From the IMG/VR virus record IMGVR_UViG_3300002053_000034, positions 1 to 64,000 of that record: a stretch of DNA of 64,000 nucleotides, one strand, 5' to 3'. Source of the stretch: a virus. Below, piece after piece: positions 29,471-60,348 of this stretch. Both the position numbers and the translations under genes were made by a program. Below the pieces are notes generated by a model that did not search any database, was not told the origin of the DNA, and saw nothing but the letters and a program-made list of their open reading frames with translations. The first letter of the stretch is position 1; each line of letters opens with the position of its first letter.

Positions 29471-29494
29471 TATAGCGTATTAATAGCTAAAATT

Positions 29495-29512
29495 ATTATA
29501 GAAGACCTGGCC
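29495..29512 (-). promoter_or_regulatory. Candidate promoter (-10) upstream of the giant gene
   Basis: On the coding strand the sequence is CTTCTATAAT, sharing the TTCTATAAT core with sites upstream of clpP and the cold-shock gene. It lies in the 62-base gap before the giant gene, about 38 bases from the start codon. No convincing -35 hexamer is visible 16-18 bases upstream, so it may be a phage-specific or activator-dependent promoter, or chance in AT-rich DNA. Confidence 0.35.
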
Positions 29513-51586: not shown

Positions 51587-53305
51587 TTAATCCCCGCTAC
51601 CCAGGATCGCATTTTTTAGATAATCTTTTCCACTAACGGCTGCGGGAATAGTGAATTTAGCTCCGGGTTTGTGAGGGCGTATCAAGCCCTGTGGATGCAC
51701 AAACTTATCCAGTTCTAGGCTCTGTCTATATAATTCTCTTACGCCCCAACCAGCTAAGATTAAGGCAGAATATAAATCTTTATTTTGCCCTTTTCTAGGT
51801 GTGTCAAAATGTCTCACGCCCCGGGCAGTTTGTGTTACAACTATATTCAACAATTGGGATTTAAGTAGTTTAACCGCATCATATTCAGCATCGATTAGCT
51901 CCGCAGTCTCCCCTCCCAAAACCGGTTTAACTGGAAATCGCAACTCTTTATGCTCGAAAAGTGCCAAAGTATCAAAATTGGCATCCGATATCCAACTGGT
52001 GGAGGGGTTCACAAGTTGTAATATCCTCTTTCCAGGTTTGCCCTTCATAGATTCATCCTCTATATCTATGATGCGCTCGTGATCATTGTGCCCTTCTTGC
52101 AACAGATCGGTGATAGCTTTACCACCGCCTTGAGAATCCATGAATATCCTTTTCACATTAAAAACATCGGTCAATCTTTGGATCTCCATTACCATCTCTT
52201 GTGTCTTCTTCTTTTTTAACTCTTTAACATAAACTATTTTATGTGGCGCTCCGATTTCTATAATAATTATACCGCAAGCCGCCGAACCCCCTTGATTTGG
52301 ATCTATGCCCAATACATATTCCTTGCCAGGATCACCATTCAATTTCAAAGTGAAATCGCTTCCTAACGTACAGGCTTCCAGCATGGACCCCTTAAAGAAC
52401 CCATCACTATCTGAAACCATGGCAGCTTCATATTCCATCATGAACTCTATGCTCGACATAGTTCGGCGTGCTTCATTTACATTCTCTTCATCCAAGAACC
52501 CATCCGGCAAGAGCTGATAAGGCACTTGATGAACAGCATATCTGGTATTAGTTCCCTCTTCCTCCATAGCTTTCCAGTAAGATCTCATCCTTTTCCACAT
52601 ATGATTGAACTTAAAATATCCGGAAGAGGTCATTATCATTTTATTAGCAGTCTCGCCACCAAAATCTTCGGCGGTCGCCAAACCTAACTTGATTAATTTC
52701 TCTCGTTTCTCCCGCTCTCTAACCCTCTGCATAGGTTCTGAAAAAGTAACAGCCATGGGTCTAAGAACCAAATCAATAATGTCTGAGGGCATCTGGGCCA
52801 GCTCGTCTATCTGAACTAAATAAAACCTCGACCCCCTAATTTTCGCTCCGTCCACACCTATAGGTAAAGCCTCTATGTAACTACCATGGGATTGATCGGT
52901 AGCTTTAAATTTTAGATAGCACATATCCGCACCGCGCACGGGACGCTTTTCGGTAGCTTCTCTCAATATAGGTGATCTCTGATAAAGCTTTTCTACCTCG
53001 GCAAATATCATTTTAGACTGCCTAAACGAAGGTGCTATAAGACCTACCCTATATCCTGGGTATAGCAGAGCATGCAGAACTGCATTAACTCCAAGTAAAT
53101 ACGTTTTTCCACCACCACGACCCATTACCGTAATAGTGAAACTCTTAAACCACATGTCTCTCAGTATAGATCTTTGTATGGGGGCCAAATCCACCATCAA
53201 TAAATCATAGGCCGCCGCCACAGGATCTTTTCTATAATAATCAACCAATAATGATCCTTGATCCATTATCAGCTCTATGTTTTCATAAATATCTACGCCT
53301 GGCAT
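51587..53305 (-). CDS. terL: Terminase large subunit, 572 aa
   Basis: This is the ATP-driven DNA-packaging motor and headful nuclease. Walker A is GRGGGKT (62-68), Walker B is FYLVQIDE (D167, E168), and the adjacent coupling motif is MTSSGY (225-230). The RNase H-like nuclease has D335 (LGIDPNQGG) and D390 (RIFMDSQGGG). Length fits the family. It lies 3 bases after a likely small subunit and a gene before the portal. The order is packaging then head genes. Start ATG. Confidence 0.93.
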   Translation of the reverse strand: MPGVDIYENIELIMDQGSLLVDYYRKDPVAAAYDLLMVDLAPIQRSILRDMWFKSFTITVMGRGGGKTYLLGVNAVLHALLYPGYRVGLIAPSFRQSKMIFAEVEKLYQRSPILREATEKRPVRGADMCYLKFKATDQSHGSYIEALPIGVDGAKIRGSRFYLVQIDELAQMPSDIIDLVLRPMAVTFSEPMQRVREREKREKLIKLGLATAEDFGGETANKMIMTSSGYFKFNHMWKRMRSYWKAMEEEGTNTRYAVHQVPYQLLPDGFLDEENVNEARRTMSSIEFMMEYEAAMVSDSDGFFKGSMLEACTLGSDFTLKLNGDPGKEYVLGIDPNQGGSAACGIIIIEIGAPHKIVYVKELKKKKTQEMVMEIQRLTDVFNVKRIFMDSQGGGKAITDLLQEGHNDHERIIDIEDESMKGKPGKRILQLVNPSTSWISDANFDTLALFEHKELRFPVKPVLGGETAELIDAEYDAVKLLKSQLLNIVVTQTARGVRHFDTPRKGQNKDLYSALILAGWGVRELYRQSLELDKFVHPQGLIRPHKPGAKFTIPAAVSGKDYLKNAILGSGD

Positions 53306-53308
53306 TGT

Positions 53309-53833
53309 TTACTCCTCTTCCACTATTCCAGCATCTTCGTCGTTCCGATTACCTATTAATAGATCTGACTTTAATGATTCTTCCTCTTCAGCTCGCAGAG
53401 ACTGGGCCCTATCTAAAATCTCTTGTTTCTTATCAGCATCAAAGTTAACTGCCAGATCTACAATGGAAAAGCCGCCAAATTTTTTGGGGTCTATTCTGTC
53501 CTTTCTTCGAGCAGCTAAATTATCTTTCAATTTTTCTGTTTGCTTTCTTATTTTATCTATGGAAATGGAGGCATCCATAGTAGCTACGGCATCGTCTTTG
53601 CTAGCCCTTAATATTCTAATTTCTAAAACTCTGTTGATAGCAATAGACATGATATCATCCATATCATTTGCTGTGAGTTGGGACTCATCAAAATCTCGTA
53701 AATAAGTGCCTACTAGCCCCTCGTACATCCGATTTTCTTCATCATCGAATATATCAGCTGCTGGTATATATTTTTGGAGTAATTCTTTAAACTTAGGCGG
53801 GTTTTTAGGTCTCCCCGGCTTTCCTTTTGCCAT
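53309..53833 (-). CDS. Putative terminase small subunit, 174 aa
   Basis: It directly precedes the large terminase gene with a 3-base gap. The N-terminus carries an AT-hook-like KGKPGRPKNP; the rest is helical, acidic at the C-terminus. Small subunits recognise the packaging site, are helical and often lie here. Sequence divergence prevents firm naming; the basic AT-hook is consistent with DNA binding. Confidence 0.5.
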   Translation of the reverse strand: MAKGKPGRPKNPPKFKELLQKYIPAADIFDDEENRMYEGLVGTYLRDFDESQLTANDMDDIMSIAINRVLEIRILRASKDDAVATMDASISIDKIRKQTEKLKDNLAARRKDRIDPKKFGGFSIVDLAVNFDADKKQEILDRAQSLRAEEEESLKSDLLIGNRNDEDAGIVEEE

Positions 53834-53842
53834 TATCCCCCT

Positions 53843-54274
53843 CTACACTAACGAATGCAACTCTTCTATACACTCTACATCCTTTAACTCTTCTTTTAAT
53901 AATATTAAAAATTCTGGAGTGGCGTTATGACCAAATATATGCTCAATATCTCCTCCAAAACATAATTCTAACTGATTTAGGTAGGTCAGTCTTTTTTCGG
54001 TCATAACAAAATCCGTGTCATCTAACCTAGTCTTATTCTCGTCAATCCAATCAGTAGCCTCTTCCGACACATAACCGTATTCGTACACCATACTATCGGA
54101 AAGAGCATCTTTCTCATTAAAATACTCTCTCAGAGACTTTGATATCTTATCTTTAGTTTTTTGTGAATGCTCGGCACCTAACCTTTTCTGCCGTATCTTT
54201 TCTTTAGTTTCGTCACTAAGTCTGTGCCCAACTGGGCGACCCCTCTTTTTACTAACCTTAATGTCGCTCTCCAT
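53843..54274 (-). CDS. DNA-binding protein with NUMOD3-like motif, 143 aa
   Basis: The N-terminus has an AT-hook (KKRGRPVGHR) followed by LSDETKEKIRQKRLGAEHSQ and KTKDKISKSLREYF, tandem short helices like the NUMOD3 DNA-binding motif found next to homing endonucleases. No nuclease domain is attached. The C-terminal 80 residues are helical and acidic. With the following AT-hook gene it may help the terminase recognise DNA, or it may be a remnant of a homing element. Confidence 0.55.
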   Translation of the reverse strand: MESDIKVSKKRGRPVGHRLSDETKEKIRQKRLGAEHSQKTKDKISKSLREYFNEKDALSDSMVYEYGYVSEEATDWIDENKTRLDDTDFVMTEKRLTYLNQLELCFGGDIEHIFGHNATPEFLILLKEELKDVECIEELHSLV

Positions 54275-54277
54275 GAT

Positions 54278-54763
54278 CTACCCTTCCAAGTCGATATCGT
54301 CAACCATACATTTAATGAGTCTATCAGATCCAAACAATTCAACAGATGCTACTAATCTATCACCATCAATTTCGACTACCGTGCATATCATCCCCTTAAA
54401 AGGCGTTCCTTTTAATCTATAACTGTGACCCTCTTTCACTTCATTAATAGGGACCAAATCTTCATATTTGCGGCTTGATAAAACTTCTATTTCTTCTATC
54501 TCCTTTTGGGAGCATACTCCAACATACTCTCGAATCCAGGGGCAATTACATAATTTAGCGTGTAGTCCATTATTATAATCGCATTTGACAAAAATATAAT
54601 TATTGTACAAGGGTACGCTCTTTTGTTTTCGCCCCGATTTAGTATCATATTCACGTATAACGGTAGGATATAATACCTTATCTACTTCAGGGAACGATTC
54701 CAAAAATTCTTTGACCCTTTTATATTGCTGTTGAATGATTGTCCAGACGTGCCATGCCTTCAT
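54278..54763 (-). CDS. NusG-like transcription elongation factor, 161 aa
   Basis: An NGN-type domain (AWHVWTIIQQQYKRVKEFLE to PLYNNYIFVK, residues 3-60, with the PLxxxYIFV core) is followed by a KOW domain (GTPFKGMICTVVEIDGDRLV, then VELFGSDRLI, residues 112-150). NusG-family proteins bind the RNA polymerase clamp and suppress pausing or termination. It sits downstream of a terminator at 55613 and upstream of the late head genes; a role in antitermination of late transcription, or with the phage polymerase, is plausible. Starts as ATGA with the preceding zinc-ribbon gene. Confidence 0.8.
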   Translation of the reverse strand: MKAWHVWTIIQQQYKRVKEFLESFPEVDKVLYPTVIREYDTKSGRKQKSVPLYNNYIFVKCDYNNGLHAKLCNCPWIREYVGVCSQKEIEEIEVLSSRKYEDLVPINEVKEGHSYRLKGTPFKGMICTVVEIDGDRLVASVELFGSDRLIKCMVDDIDLEG

Positions 54764-55029
54764 TCCTCAATCCTTTCCACCTTTGTAGCTTTTTTACACT
54801 CGGGGCAAGCATACATGATGGTATTTACAGAAGCCGTAAGTACCCTCCCACATTCCACGCATTTGAACCAACCATTTCTTTTGGACCGAGACGGTTTAGA
54901 AAATGAAAAAGGAAGGTTCATATAGTCATCGGCGAATTTACTTTCCCTATGGATACGCTCATTATGCTTTCTAACACCCTCTTCTGGTTCCCATCGGCGA
55001 GGAGTAGACCCCGGACTAAGATCTCCCAT
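54760..55029 (-). CDS. Zinc-ribbon protein, 89 aa
   Basis: C57-VE-C60 and C75-PE-C78 form a four-cysteine zinc ribbon. The N-terminal half is basic and probably disordered. Zinc ribbons of this size occur in transcription factors and small phage regulatory proteins. Its overlap (ATGA) with the NusG-like gene suggests joint regulation of transcription; direct evidence is lacking. Confidence 0.65.
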   Translation of the reverse strand: MGDLSPGSTPRRWEPEEGVRKHNERIHRESKFADDYMNLPFSFSKPSRSKRNGWFKCVECGRVLTASVNTIMYACPECKKATKVERIEE

Positions 55030-55030
55030 G

Positions 55031-55600
55031 TTATAGCCCTCTCTTGTAATCTATTTGAACAAATCTTTTACTACTAATATAATCAGCTATATATACTACT
55101 AATTCTTCGGGGGTATACTTGGACAGTGGTTTACGAACAGATTGGTCGGTCCACGGGCCATAATGGTAAAAAATGGCAGAACATATCATATTAGCGGAAT
55201 CCCTACTAAGCCTACCTTTGAATTTTTGTCTATAAACATCGGCAGCTATGCTAGCCATCACTTGAGGATGATCTGAGGTAGTATGCCCAGTCTTATCTTT
55301 TCCCTGCTTAGCAAGATCATGTAACAAGGCCGCAGCACATACCTCGTCTCGATGCGAGTCACAGCCCAACCCTATGCTAAGATCATAAGCTAAAGCAAAC
55401 ACTTTCTTCATATGTATTAATGTGCCATCAGGACCTAGTTCTTCCAAAGGATGAAATTTTCCCGAACTACTTGAAGGACAATCTTCAAATATATAATCTG
55501 GCGCAATTTTAATACATTCTTCAGTAAATTCCCTTATTACAGGATTGATGATCAACGATAATTCTTCTTTAAAAAACTCTAACCTATCCTCTGTATCCAT
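55031..55600 (-). CDS. HD-domain phosphohydrolase, 189 aa
   Basis: The catalytic pattern is visible: H63 (LIHMKKVFALA), H94-D95 (ALLHDLAKQG), H111 (SDHP), H146 (FYHYG) and D173 (IADYISSKR). This is the arrangement of YqeK/HD-type nucleotide hydrolases; a 5'-nucleotidase or (p)ppGpp/Ap4A-type activity is possible. It starts just after a Rho-independent terminator. ATG follows AAGGAGAG. It may adjust nucleotide pools or clear host alarmones. Confidence 0.8.
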   Translation of the reverse strand: MDTEDRLEFFKEELSLIINPVIREFTEECIKIAPDYIFEDCPSSSSGKFHPLEELGPDGTLIHMKKVFALAYDLSIGLGCDSHRDEVCAAALLHDLAKQGKDKTGHTTSDHPQVMASIAADVYRQKFKGRLSRDSANMICSAIFYHYGPWTDQSVRKPLSKYTPEELVVYIADYISSKRFVQIDYKRGL

Positions 55601-55612
55601 AATACTCTCCTT

Positions 55613-55653
55613 AAATAAAAAACCCCAACATTATCTAGCTCGAATGTATGGGG
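55613..55653 (-). terminator. Rho-independent terminator between the kinase operon and the HD/NusG genes
   Basis: On the coding strand CCCCATACATT and AATGTTGGGG form a 10-bp stem with one bulged T and a 10-base loop, followed at once by TTTTTTATTT. The stem overlaps the end of the 55631 gene. No promoter fits between it and the HD gene start at 55600, so transcription of the next operon needs read-through or a start inside the upstream genes. Confidence 0.75.
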
Positions 55654-55861
55654 CGTCCGTACTTAAATTTGTTCTATCTTCTTTTGTACTTGGCGTCTGT
55701 GCATTATACCCTGACTGTGGCTCAATTCTCCACTCGCGGGGGTAATTAGCATAGGCTAAATCCATGTAATCAAATCTTCGCCTATCATCCCTAATTAATG
55801 TTGCTCCCTCACGATATCTAATCCAATATGGTTTTGTGAATGCCGAATGGGAAAGTGGCAT
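55631..55861 (-). CDS. Hypothetical protein, 76 aa
   Basis: Unrecognised; basic and aromatic (TKPYWIRYREGATLIRDDRR, FDYMDLAYANYPREW). No known motif. TAATG overlap with the upstream gene, and its 3' end forms the terminator stem. Probably a small phage protein expressed with the nucleotide kinase operon. Confidence 0.5.
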   Translation of the reverse strand: MPLSHSAFTKPYWIRYREGATLIRDDRRRFDYMDLAYANYPREWRIEPQSGYNAQTPSTKEDRTNLSTDAPYIRAR

Positions 55862-56172
55862 TACTCAGCCTCCTTAGGGTTTGTTCTTTCCAAGAACACC
55901 GCTATTTCTCCGTCATCATTTTCATTAGCAGTCATCCAATTCATTATTCCCATTACGAATTCCGGGACACCGTCGCCCTTCCATTCATAACTAATTCTTA
56001 GATATTCATTCTCCCCCATTTTTACGCCAACACTAGCATATTTATACTCGCCCTGCTTCATTATTTCAGAGCCCTTAATATCTTCGGGCATAATTTTAAG
56101 TGTCAGTGCTTTTTGAGCCATTTCTTTCTGAATTTTCTCCTCGTTGGTTTCTACCACTTCATTATTCACCAT
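55861..56172 (-). CDS. Hypothetical protein, 103 aa
   Basis: Unrecognised. Acidic N-terminus (NNEVVETNEEKIQKEMAQ) and a beta-rich core (YKYASVGVKMGENEYLRISY). It overlaps the kinase gene by 11 bases and the next gene by 1, so expression is tied to them. No enzyme motif. Possibly a small modulator. Confidence 0.5.
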   Translation of the reverse strand: MVNNEVVETNEEKIQKEMAQKALTLKIMPEDIKGSEIMKQGEYKYASVGVKMGENEYLRISYEWKGDGVPEFVMGIMNWMTANENDDGEIAVFLERTNPKEAE

Positions 56173-56797
56173 GGTAAACTTCCCCCTTAGTCATTAATTG
56201 TTCTAATAAAATAATAGCTTCGACAGTGTCTTCCGCTGCTCTATATAAATCTTCTAATGTGCCATCATTATTTATGATAATATCAAAAGCAGTGTAATCA
56301 TTGAGTGCGGTTTCAGACTCGTGATTCATACCACGAATTTCATGTATGACGGGTCGTGCTATCTTTATTAATATTCCCCTGTTTTTCCTTACATAGTCGC
56401 ACTCATTTACATGCCTTACGTCTGTAATGACTACGTCCTTATACTCCCGTTTCTTTACTTCCTTGTCCAAAGCATACACCCAATAGTCGTGTTTAATTCT
56501 ACGGTAAAAACTGCCTAGTTCCTGCATAATTTCTCGTGGAGACCAATAATTTTCTGGATCACTAGACGCCCCGTTATACCTCTTGGCAAATCTAAAATCC
56601 GGAGCTTCCCTCATATTCTTGCCCCGCTCCCATAACTGGTCATCCGTAAGTCCAAAATGTTCCTTGCACATATTTTTCAATTGCGTGGCAAACGCCATGT
56701 GCTCAAAGCATCTTCCTTTGTGACTAAAAGATGTAATTAAATATTCCCCAAATTGATCCTTACCGCTTCTGGCCTTTCCATGTAGTCCTATTATCAT
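56162..56797 (-). CDS. Deoxynucleoside monophosphate kinase, 211 aa
   Basis: The P-loop GKARSGKD (7-14) at the N-terminus, together with GLTDDQLWERGKNMRE-like substrate loop, DPENYWSPREIMQELGSFYR and VVITDVRHVNECDYVR, matches T4 gp1-type dNMP kinases, which phosphorylate dGMP, dTMP and modified dCMP to dNDPs. It would supply precursors for phage DNA, possibly with modified bases. Overlaps the previous gene as ATGA. Length is normal for the family. Confidence 0.85.
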   Translation of the reverse strand: MIIGLHGKARSGKDQFGEYLITSFSHKGRCFEHMAFATQLKNMCKEHFGLTDDQLWERGKNMREAPDFRFAKRYNGASSDPENYWSPREIMQELGSFYRRIKHDYWVYALDKEVKKREYKDVVITDVRHVNECDYVRKNRGILIKIARPVIHEIRGMNHESETALNDYTAFDIIINNDGTLEDLYRAAEDTVEAIILLEQLMTKGEVYHGE

Positions 56798-57042
56798 ATT
56801 TTAATCCTCCGCAAATCTTTAGTAGCTTTTTCAAATTCGGTTTCAAATTTTTTTATAGATTTAGAAGCTTTGTCCACAGATTTAACGAATTCATTCGCTT
56901 TTTTGTCTAAATCTTCCATTTTTCTATCTATGGGTATTAATTTAATGATATATTCCTCACATCCTGGAATATTGGGGTTATATCTATATAAATGAGTGAT
57001 TTCCCCCTCATCATCAAATTCAATCCAATATTTAAAAATCAT
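56794..57042 (-). CDS. Hypothetical protein, 82 aa
   Basis: A beta-like start (YWIEFDDEGEITHLYRYNPN) and a C-terminal amphipathic helix (VKSVDKASKSIKKFETEFEK). No known family. Starts as TAATG with the DIP1984-like gene and ends as ATGA with the kinase gene. Perhaps a partner of one of them. Confidence 0.5.
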   Translation of the reverse strand: MIFKYWIEFDDEGEITHLYRYNPNIPGCEEYIIKLIPIDRKMEDLDKKANEFVKSVDKASKSIKKFETEFEKATKDLRRIKI

Positions 57043-57500
57043 TACTTAACCTCAGTTTGCCAAGTGGCAAACTCAATTTGAGATTCTAATACTTTTATAT
57101 CCAATCTCAATTTTTCAGTTTCTTTAAAAACTTCATCGACGTCAATACATAAAATTCCTTCGCCTTTTCTATCTCGGCCGGTCGCAGCACCTAATATATA
57201 TTCAAAACTCCGCAATTTTCCTTCCGTCGTATCCTTAATAGCCACCGCGTCCGCCAAACTCAAAGATGTCTTATTTATAGTAATAACGGTGCTTGCCATA
57301 GTACGATCTATTTGGGTAGAAAACTGCTGAAGCTTATTGTATAAATCCCTAAGCTCAACTAGTCTTTTTTCTATAATAGATTGATTTGCAGCGTAATCTT
57401 CGTCGTCTTGAACCACAGTTAGATACGATATATGATCTCTAAGATTATATATTGAATTCTCTAAGTACTCCTTTTCCTTTATAAGTTCAGCTAAAAGCAT
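57042..57500 (-). CDS. DIP1984/DUF6847-like protein, 152 aa
   Basis: Two long helices with a central turn: LIKEKEYLENSIYNLRDHIS, then RTMASTVITINKTSLSLADA and VAIKDTTEGKLRSFEYIL, then a C-terminal helix. The INKTSLSLADAVAIKD segment matches the conserved part of the DIP1984 (septicolysin-like) family, whose function is unknown. It has no catalytic motif. It is found in bacteria and mobile elements; here it sits after the cold-shock gene. Confidence 0.6.
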   Translation of the reverse strand: MLLAELIKEKEYLENSIYNLRDHISYLTVVQDDEDYAANQSIIEKRLVELRDLYNKLQQFSTQIDRTMASTVITINKTSLSLADAVAIKDTTEGKLRSFEYILGAATGRDRKGEGILCIDVDEVFKETEKLRLDIKVLESQIEFATWQTEVK

Positions 57501-57513
57501 ATCCCTTTCTCCC

Positions 57514-57732
57514 TTATTCTGGGGTTACTTCTTGTGCCTGAACACCCTTATCCGTTTCTACTAACTTAAAAGTAACTTTTTGTCCAGCTCGAAGTGTCTT
57601 ATATCCCTCCATATTGATGTAAGAATAATGGACAAAATACTCCCTAGACTCATCGTCTTCCTTATTGATAAAACCATATCCACGCTCTGCGTTAAACCAT
57701 TTTACTACTCCAATAACTCTATCTTCTGACAT
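57514..57732 (-). CDS. Cold-shock domain protein, 72 aa
   Basis: Complete CspA-type fold: VIGVVKWFNAERGYGFINKE with RNP1 RGYGFI (17-22), and RNP2 EYFVHYSYI (31-39). It binds single-stranded RNA or DNA and would melt RNA structure or chaperone mRNA. The gene starts 12 bases after a GGAGG; its long upstream region contains a palindrome and a promoter candidate, pointing to separate expression. Confidence 0.93.
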   Translation of the reverse strand: MSEDRVIGVVKWFNAERGYGFINKEDDESREYFVHYSYINMEGYKTLRAGQKVTFKLVETDKGVQAQEVTPE

Positions 57733-57759: not shown

Positions 57760-57776
57760 GCATGCCCTGGGCATGC
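57760..57776 (-). repeat. Perfect palindrome in the leader of the cold-shock gene
   Basis: GCATGCCC and GGGCATGC are exact inverted repeats around one base, 28 bases upstream of the start codon. In RNA a 6-bp GC-rich hairpin with a 5-base loop would form; in DNA it is a good operator for a dimer. The position close to the start suggests autoregulation or RNA-thermometer-like control as known for csp genes. Confidence 0.6.
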
Positions 57777-57816
57777 ACCTAAACTAACTCATACCTATAC
57801 CTATATTGTTACTAAT

Positions 57817-57846
57817 ATTATAGAATACTATCCCATATTTGCTAGA
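57817..57846 (-). promoter_or_regulatory. Candidate promoter of the cold-shock/kinase operon
   Basis: The coding strand has TCTAGC-N18-TATAAT with TATTCTATAATAT at the -10, matching 13 bases of the clpP promoter. The -35 is weak. It lies in a 126-base gap upstream of the cold-shock gene, one of the two longest gaps in the right half, consistent with an operon start. Confidence 0.45.
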
Positions 57847-60280: not shown

Positions 60281-60318
60281 AATTCTAAATCCTCCTAATT
60301 CTTTAGTTTTCTATCTAT

Positions 60319-60348
60319 ATTATAGAATATTTTTACAATTTTGCTCAA
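60319..60348 (-). promoter_or_regulatory. Candidate promoter of clpP
   Basis: On the coding strand TTGAGC-N18-TATAAT (TATTCTATAATAT at -10) lies in a 92-base gap about 39 bases upstream of the clpP start. It shares the 13-base TATTCTATAATAT with the site upstream of the cold-shock gene. The -35 matches 4 of 6 consensus bases, so host sigma-70 recognition is plausible. Confidence 0.5.

Follow-up and report, generated by a model that had tools for sequence, protein, structure and literature searches.

A conserved intrinsic terminator signal at 55.6 kb in the genome of an uncultured phage marks the boundary between nucleotide-metabolism genes and packaging and head genes, and the third gene after it encodes a divergent NusG-like protein. 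We consider antitermination by a specialized NusG to be the best reading of this arrangement, predicted from sequence and held with moderate confidence. In its complete form, a leaky terminator with NusG-driven read-through that feeds back into a late operon of more than 50 kb, the proposal is tentative, and we place it somewhat below an even chance. The window is the whole 64,000-nucleotide stretch analyzed here, part of a 64,565-base IMG/VR record, and its minus strand carries all 60 called genes. Around the terminator the minus-strand order is dNMP kinase, g103, g76, terminator, HD, Zn-ribbon, NusG-like, g143, putative small terminase subunit (TerS), and large terminase subunit (TerL). The features used in the argument are as follows.

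60318 to 60348, minus strand: promoter P1, TTGAGCAAA-N12-TTCTATAATA, before a ClpP-like gene (PWM 22.9)
57816 to 57846, minus strand: promoter P2, TCTAGCAAA-N12-TTCTATAATA, start of the unit containing the terminator and NusG (PWM 34.0)
57760 to 57776, minus strand: leader palindrome GCATGCCCAGGGCATGC, before the ribosome-binding site of the CSD gene
57514 to 57732, minus strand: cold-shock-domain (CSD) protein, 72 aa, first gene of the P2 unit (Pfam CSD 7.3e-25)
57042 to 57500, minus strand: g152, no assigned function, syntenic in relatives
56794 to 57042, minus strand: g82, no assigned function, syntenic in relatives
56162 to 56797, minus strand: deoxynucleoside monophosphate kinase (Pfam DNMK 4.1e-18; phrog_139 1.6e-45)
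55861 to 56172, minus strand: g103, no assigned function, syntenic in relatives
55631 to 55861, minus strand: g76, 76 aa, no assigned function, syntenic in relatives
55613 to 55653, minus strand: intrinsic terminator (hairpin 55653-55623, T-tract 55622-55617)
55031 to 55600, minus strand: HD-domain phosphohydrolase-like protein (Pfam HD 1.5e-11; phrog_5889 5.6e-34)
54760 to 55029, minus strand: Zn-ribbon protein, 89 aa, overlapping the NusG start by 4 nt (four invariant Cys; structure model)
54278 to 54763, minus strand: NusG-family protein, 161 aa, NGN and KOW (Pfam NusG 6.3e-8; phrog_6386 2.5e-9)
53843 to 54274, minus strand: g143, weak NUMOD3/HTH-like match (Pfam)
53309 to 53833, minus strand: putative TerS, by position and synteny
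51587 to 53305, minus strand: TerL (phrog_2 4.3e-27)
29494 to 29503, minus strand: isolated -10-like TTCTATAATA before the tape-measure gene, with a poor -35 half

Read on the minus strand, the terminator consists of CCCCATACATT-CGAGCTAGAT-AATGTTGGGG followed by TTTTTTA, that is, a GC-based stem with a T-tract directly 3' of it, at the end of a gene. The preliminary description had reported a hairpin with TTTTTT at 55613-55653, and it is present exactly as described. The hairpin overlaps the stop codon of g76; the conserved C-terminus of this gene (..PYIRAR) and its stop codon form the 5' arm, and the 3' arm is mostly non-coding. The 61 nt at the site fold with -15.0 kcal/mol (z = -2.3 vs shuffles). 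A generic terminator scan missed the hairpin because of its loop limit of 8 nt, and a scan with longer loops recovers it as the sole strict intergenic candidate on the minus (coding) strand of the window.

For comparison, 80 loci with genes for related large terminase subunits were retrieved (relatives are designated by L numbers), and the hairpin recurs in relatives with covariation. Native arm pairs average -13.3 kcal/mol, compared with -10.2 (sd 0.65) for permuted pairs, and none of 2000 permutations was as good. In L012 the arms ACCAGTAAT/ATTACTGGT are compensatory, both sides having changed together while staying complementary. Arm permutation was used, and a column-wise base-pair count on alignment A2 was set aside because the L012 arm is one column out of register there. 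The permutation and the L012 compensation together show that the RNA structure is conserved and did not arise as a match by chance. At the level of sequence, the 55.6-kb hairpin is confirmed as a genuine, evolutionarily conserved terminator signal, at which transcription would be expected to end. The 30-nt gap between g76 and the HD gene is taken up by the terminator and a ribosome-binding site and holds no strong copy of the promoter class described below, in line with the earlier view that no promoter precedes HD. The terminator does lie where a "kinase operon" had been said to end, but the unit begins with the CSD gene at the promoter at 57846-57816, not with the kinase.

The promoter class, TCTAGCAAA-N12-TTCTATAATA, is clade-specific and was found by comparing leaders. 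It has a strict spacer, a non-consensus -35 (CTAGCAAA) and a plain TATAAT as -10, and a generic sigma-70 scan did not single it out; the hits of such a scan are at chance level and were discarded. The PWM scores of P2 and P1 compare with maxima of 2.4-14.6 in shuffled sequence. The position of P1 is shared with six relatives (L005, L006, L010, L014, L099, L121), and exact P2 copies occur in relatives that carry NusG. Among loci covering ParM to TerL, the class lies upstream of TerL in 13 of 15 with NusG and in none of 14 without it. From 57.8 kb to the low end of the window there is no strong copy of the class. Since no such copy follows it, the terminator, 2.2 kb downstream of the start of the unit at 57.85 kb, falls within a single transcription unit. 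The early regions of relatives (L083-L086, L091) hold about three to five copies each; their late regions hold none over 45 kb after TerL (L081), over 26-28 kb (L059, L018) or, by exact-pattern search, over the 77-kb late region of the L121 contig. The two downstream copies seen in L007 and L016 stand ahead of small genes resembling, by inspection, mobile Zn-finger endonuclease genes.

Because the -10 boxes are TATAAT, host RNA polymerase is the likelier user of these predicted promoters, which narrows an earlier proposal that either host or phage polymerase reads through. A phage sigma factor was considered as the source of the odd -35 and rejected, as a search for sigma region 4 in 14 records gave no homologue; sigma region 4 was the sole target of that search, and no gene for an RNA polymerase came to notice in the phage records. 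A TATAAT inside g76 (55708-55703) was likewise rejected as a promoter, being the codon run of a conserved GYN motif. Several relatives lacking NusG have TTGACAAAT-type promoters before ClpP instead, and no obvious late promoter was seen in the NusG-less relatives, which weakens the case for the length of the late operon as the reason for having NusG. At the position of the leader palindrome before CSD, several relatives have a hairpin of differing sequence.

The NusG-like protein had been placed three genes on from the terminator, ahead of packaging and head genes, and both statements hold: profiles and fold assign it to the NusG family, and those genes follow downstream on the same strand. 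Pfam NusG matches its NGN domain with 33.5 bits (cut-off 22.2), in agreement with Foldseek, and phrog_6386, "transcription antiterminator", matches over nearly the full length. PDB sequence matches are Thermotoga maritima NusG and Escherichia coli RfaH. An AlphaFold2 model (pLDDT 87) contains NGN and KOW domains, and its Foldseek matches are NusG, RfaH and Spt5. The KOW domain is modeled at the C-terminus as a four-strand beta-barrel and is spanned by NusG profiles; Pfam KOW itself scores 15.6 bits, below its cut-off of 22.3. The NCBIfam models rank UpxY (1e-10), RfaH (3.4e-9), NusG (2.7e-6) and LoaP (1.1e-4), all below cut-off: UpxY reaches 41.8 of 100 bits, yet is the best model, RfaH 36.8 of 124 and LoaP 22.4 of 125. 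Because the Pfam, PHROG, PDB, model, Foldseek and NCBIfam results agree, we conclude that the protein is a divergent NusG-family member, leaning to the specialized antiterminators (UpxY, RfaH).

On the coding strand of the window there is neither a UNCG leader hairpin, as used by LoaP, nor, diverged ops-like elements aside, an exact ops element of RfaH (GGCGGTAG), so a recruitment site for the protein was not recognized. No close relatives occur in cultured phages; the matches are remote, the best being in two 630-kb uncultured phages. An attempt to identify the host through the NusG alignment was abandoned, as it gave only remote cellular NusG-like matches. The literature searched contained no experimentally studied phage member of phrog_6386; the link here is a sequence match, and "antiterminator" there is a family annotation only. 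The adjacent Zn-ribbon protein, whose four Cys are invariant in 28 relatives, was rejected as an Spt4 partner of NusG: it has no Foldseek hit at E<=0.001, and its gene is also found in NusG-less phages. At one position this protein reads NT(I/V)M in nearly all phages with NusG and NTVG in nearly all without it. For the putative TerS, Pfam and PHROG profile searches gave no family match, and the CspD and CspE models of NCBIfam match the CSD protein below cut-off.

The relatives share the order ClpP, g276, ParM, CSD, g152, g82, dNMP kinase, g103, g76, HD, Zn-ribbon, (NusG), g143, TerS, TerL. At least nine related metagenomic phages share the terminator at this position (L005, L006, L007, L010, L011/L012, L016, L023, L044/L121, L099). 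About a dozen relatives have NusG without it (L013, L014, L018, L019, L029, L036, L048, L056, L059, L071, L076, L081, L082, L117), which argues that the terminator is not an obligatory NusG target; at that place these loci have little beyond a ribosome-binding site, or the genes overlap. Loci without NusG also lack the terminator, and L077-L080 have an unrelated one there. In the main clade, 31 loci have NusG at one fixed site beside the terminase genes. NusG-less sister phages keep the same gene order, so NusG is dispensable for this layout, and no NusG was found elsewhere in 17 NusG-less records, which may be fragments. The CSD gene is kept in relatives that have neither NusG nor the terminator.

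On the TerL tree, the presence of NusG corresponds to one change and the terminator to two changes, inside the phages with NusG. Three deeper relatives (L122-L124) lack the terminator but have NusG in its usual place. Because they join the side of the NusG-less clade, there are hints that NusG is old and may have been lost once, on a tree whose root is unreliable; rooting with Bacillus phage Stills and Microcystis phage MaeS was dropped, the outgroup branch being too long. The relatives are metagenomic fragments with one shared history, and the joint occurrence of NusG and the promoter class therefore amounts to little more than one evolutionary event. Both NusG and the terminator track the phylogeny, and the promoter class shares the distribution of NusG, so their co-occurrence is no proof of a functional link. 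As separate observations, TerL carries large insertions in L044 (3608-7903), L025, L048, L056, L059, L076, L082 and L121; those of L044 match intein splicing and LAGLIDADG domains and are apparently two inteins. In L007, L012, L016, L065 and L072-L074 the CSD gene is, by inspection, seemingly interrupted by group I intron-like sequence.

These data suggest the following course of events. The late genes would form one long unit entered from P2 (57.85 kb) and P1 (60.35 kb), probably by host polymerase. Transcription from P1 and P2 would yield CSD to g76 and then mostly stop at 55.6 kb, where the hairpin may act as a leaky attenuator between the nucleotide-metabolism genes and the HD, Zn-ribbon, NusG, terminase, head and tail genes. 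Leakage past it would supply the first HD, Zn-ribbon and NusG products. NusG would then join the elongation complex, lessen pausing and termination, and raise transcription of both its own gene and the late block of more than 50 kb, including the 21.7-kb tape-measure gene; through this positive feedback, late expression would rise with time.

The higher scores of the specialized-antiterminator models relative to housekeeping NusG and the location of the late genes all on one strand favor this proposal; the position of NusG behind the terminator, the relatives that have NusG without the terminator and the NusG-less sisters with the same gene order speak against it. Of the late antitermination switch first suggested for this region, the terminator, the NusG and the promoter map stand. 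A simple switch made early does not, since the NusG gene lies behind its terminator, which it often does without; a switch here would need leakage and positive feedback. The action of NusG on the 55.6-kb hairpin is the weakest step, because many relatives have NusG without the hairpin. For the same reason, the basic job of NusG is probably processivity along the late operon, and the terminator was probably added later. A general processivity role, which fits all the data best, is likelier than a dedicated role at this hairpin. It is somewhat unlikely, in our estimate, that a leaky terminator in front of the gene for its own factor delays late expression until enough NusG accumulates, after which the whole operon of more than 50 kb would be transcribed processively from an early promoter.

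The limited spread of the terminator among phages with NusG, and the occurrence of NusG without it, would also fit partial termination without regulation, in which the hairpin does no more than fix the proportion of early (nucleotide-metabolism) to late transcripts and NusG does not act on it; a single 10-pair hairpin with six T is plausibly leaky. We regard this as unlikely, given that compensatory changes have preserved the hairpin right where early genes give way to late ones, and that the genomes concerned also encode a relative of NusG antiterminators. The absence of the promoter class is not an absence of all promoters, and it is conceivable, though quite unlikely, that the late genes have promoters of their own and that read-through matters little. 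Two elements invite this idea. One is a conserved non-coding leader element, (A/T)CTAACC-n-TATAATAGAGG-like, at 49350-49300 (minus strand) before g371 (about 49.33 kb), which is present in the clades with and without NusG; the other is the exact -10 that stands alone at 29503. Neither a -10 nor a -35 is fixed in the g371 element, which may instead be an RNA element and would not serve the NusG, terminase or portal genes, and the 29503 site was not found in L081, the relative that covers the region.

That NGN and KOW are both kept, the latter as a beta-barrel in the model, and that neither UNCG nor ops was found on the coding strand, would agree with a protein that stands in for host NusG in general or acts as its decoy, by blocking Rho or by coupling to phage translation, and is not an antiterminator specific to an operon. 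The fixed position of the gene in the late unit and the specialized antiterminators as closest models make this distinctly improbable. Very improbable, in our view, is that the CSD protein is the antiterminator, made before the terminator like lambda N and melting the hairpin. It is the first gene product after P2, and Csp proteins are described as transcription antiterminators in PMC4551563 and in NCBIfam names, but CSD is also kept in relatives with neither NusG nor terminator.

Further elements were observed in the late region. A conserved hairpin leader, GGATNAA-GCAC..GTGC-ATCC, precedes the major head gene (46178-46110, minus strand); its stems are changed in relatives, it has no Rfam match, and the Rfam search gave nothing relevant. 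A GC-rich hairpin lies directly 3' of the same gene (45038-44988, minus strand), with a T-rich tail in some relatives (L012, L023, L029). The tape-measure gene is a single 7,223-aa gene (7786-29457, minus strand) with PhageMin_Tail (5.5e-26) and RNase_T exonuclease (2.8e-8) domains and a homologue of comparable length in L081. Tape measures set tail length at the usual 1.5 Å per residue, and the tail would be about 1 micrometer long if the whole 7,223 aa served as tape measure.

In phage lambda, N and Q gate successive gene classes by antitermination and are made before the terminators they overcome. The gate between gene classes proposed here is alike; N and Q differ in not belonging to the NusG family and in that order of synthesis, and no nut- or qut-like element was identified here. 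Specialized NusG antitermination has closer counterparts in bacteria. In long operons, LoaP lets transcription pass intrinsic terminators (PMC12691694, PMC7819879), and its units contain such terminators (PMC12691694). LoaP is thus a precedent for a NusG paralog acting in this way, whereas RfaH is not, since its reported efficiency at intrinsic terminators is rather low (PMC7819879). The loaP, upxY and taA genes sit inside or beside the long operon they are thought to serve (PMC7819879). UpxY, RfaH and LoaP share with the phage protein the NGN and KOW architecture and a gene within the operon presumably served. They differ in that the phage gene lies in a packaging operon, misses all curated cut-offs, and has neither UNCG hairpin nor coding-strand ops, its target being putative. 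In phage Xp10, host RNA polymerase bypasses intrinsic terminators with the help of the phage factor P7, which thereby opens the late genes (PMC6624301). The likeness lies in the role, with intrinsic terminators ahead of late genes; P7 is small and works by plugging the RNA-exit channel, whereas here a NusG-fold protein is encoded behind the terminator.

With the promoter class and the terminator as defined templates, the idea is open to testing in vitro even though the phage is uncultured. In the literature surveyed, phage antiterminators are small unrelated proteins or RNA elements acting on host polymerase and host factors. The phage lineage described here has retained a NusG paralog of its own, encoded just ahead of the packaging genes. 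If our reading is true, the specialized-NusG strategy of capsule, antibiotic and conjugation operons would also serve the very long late operons of viruses.
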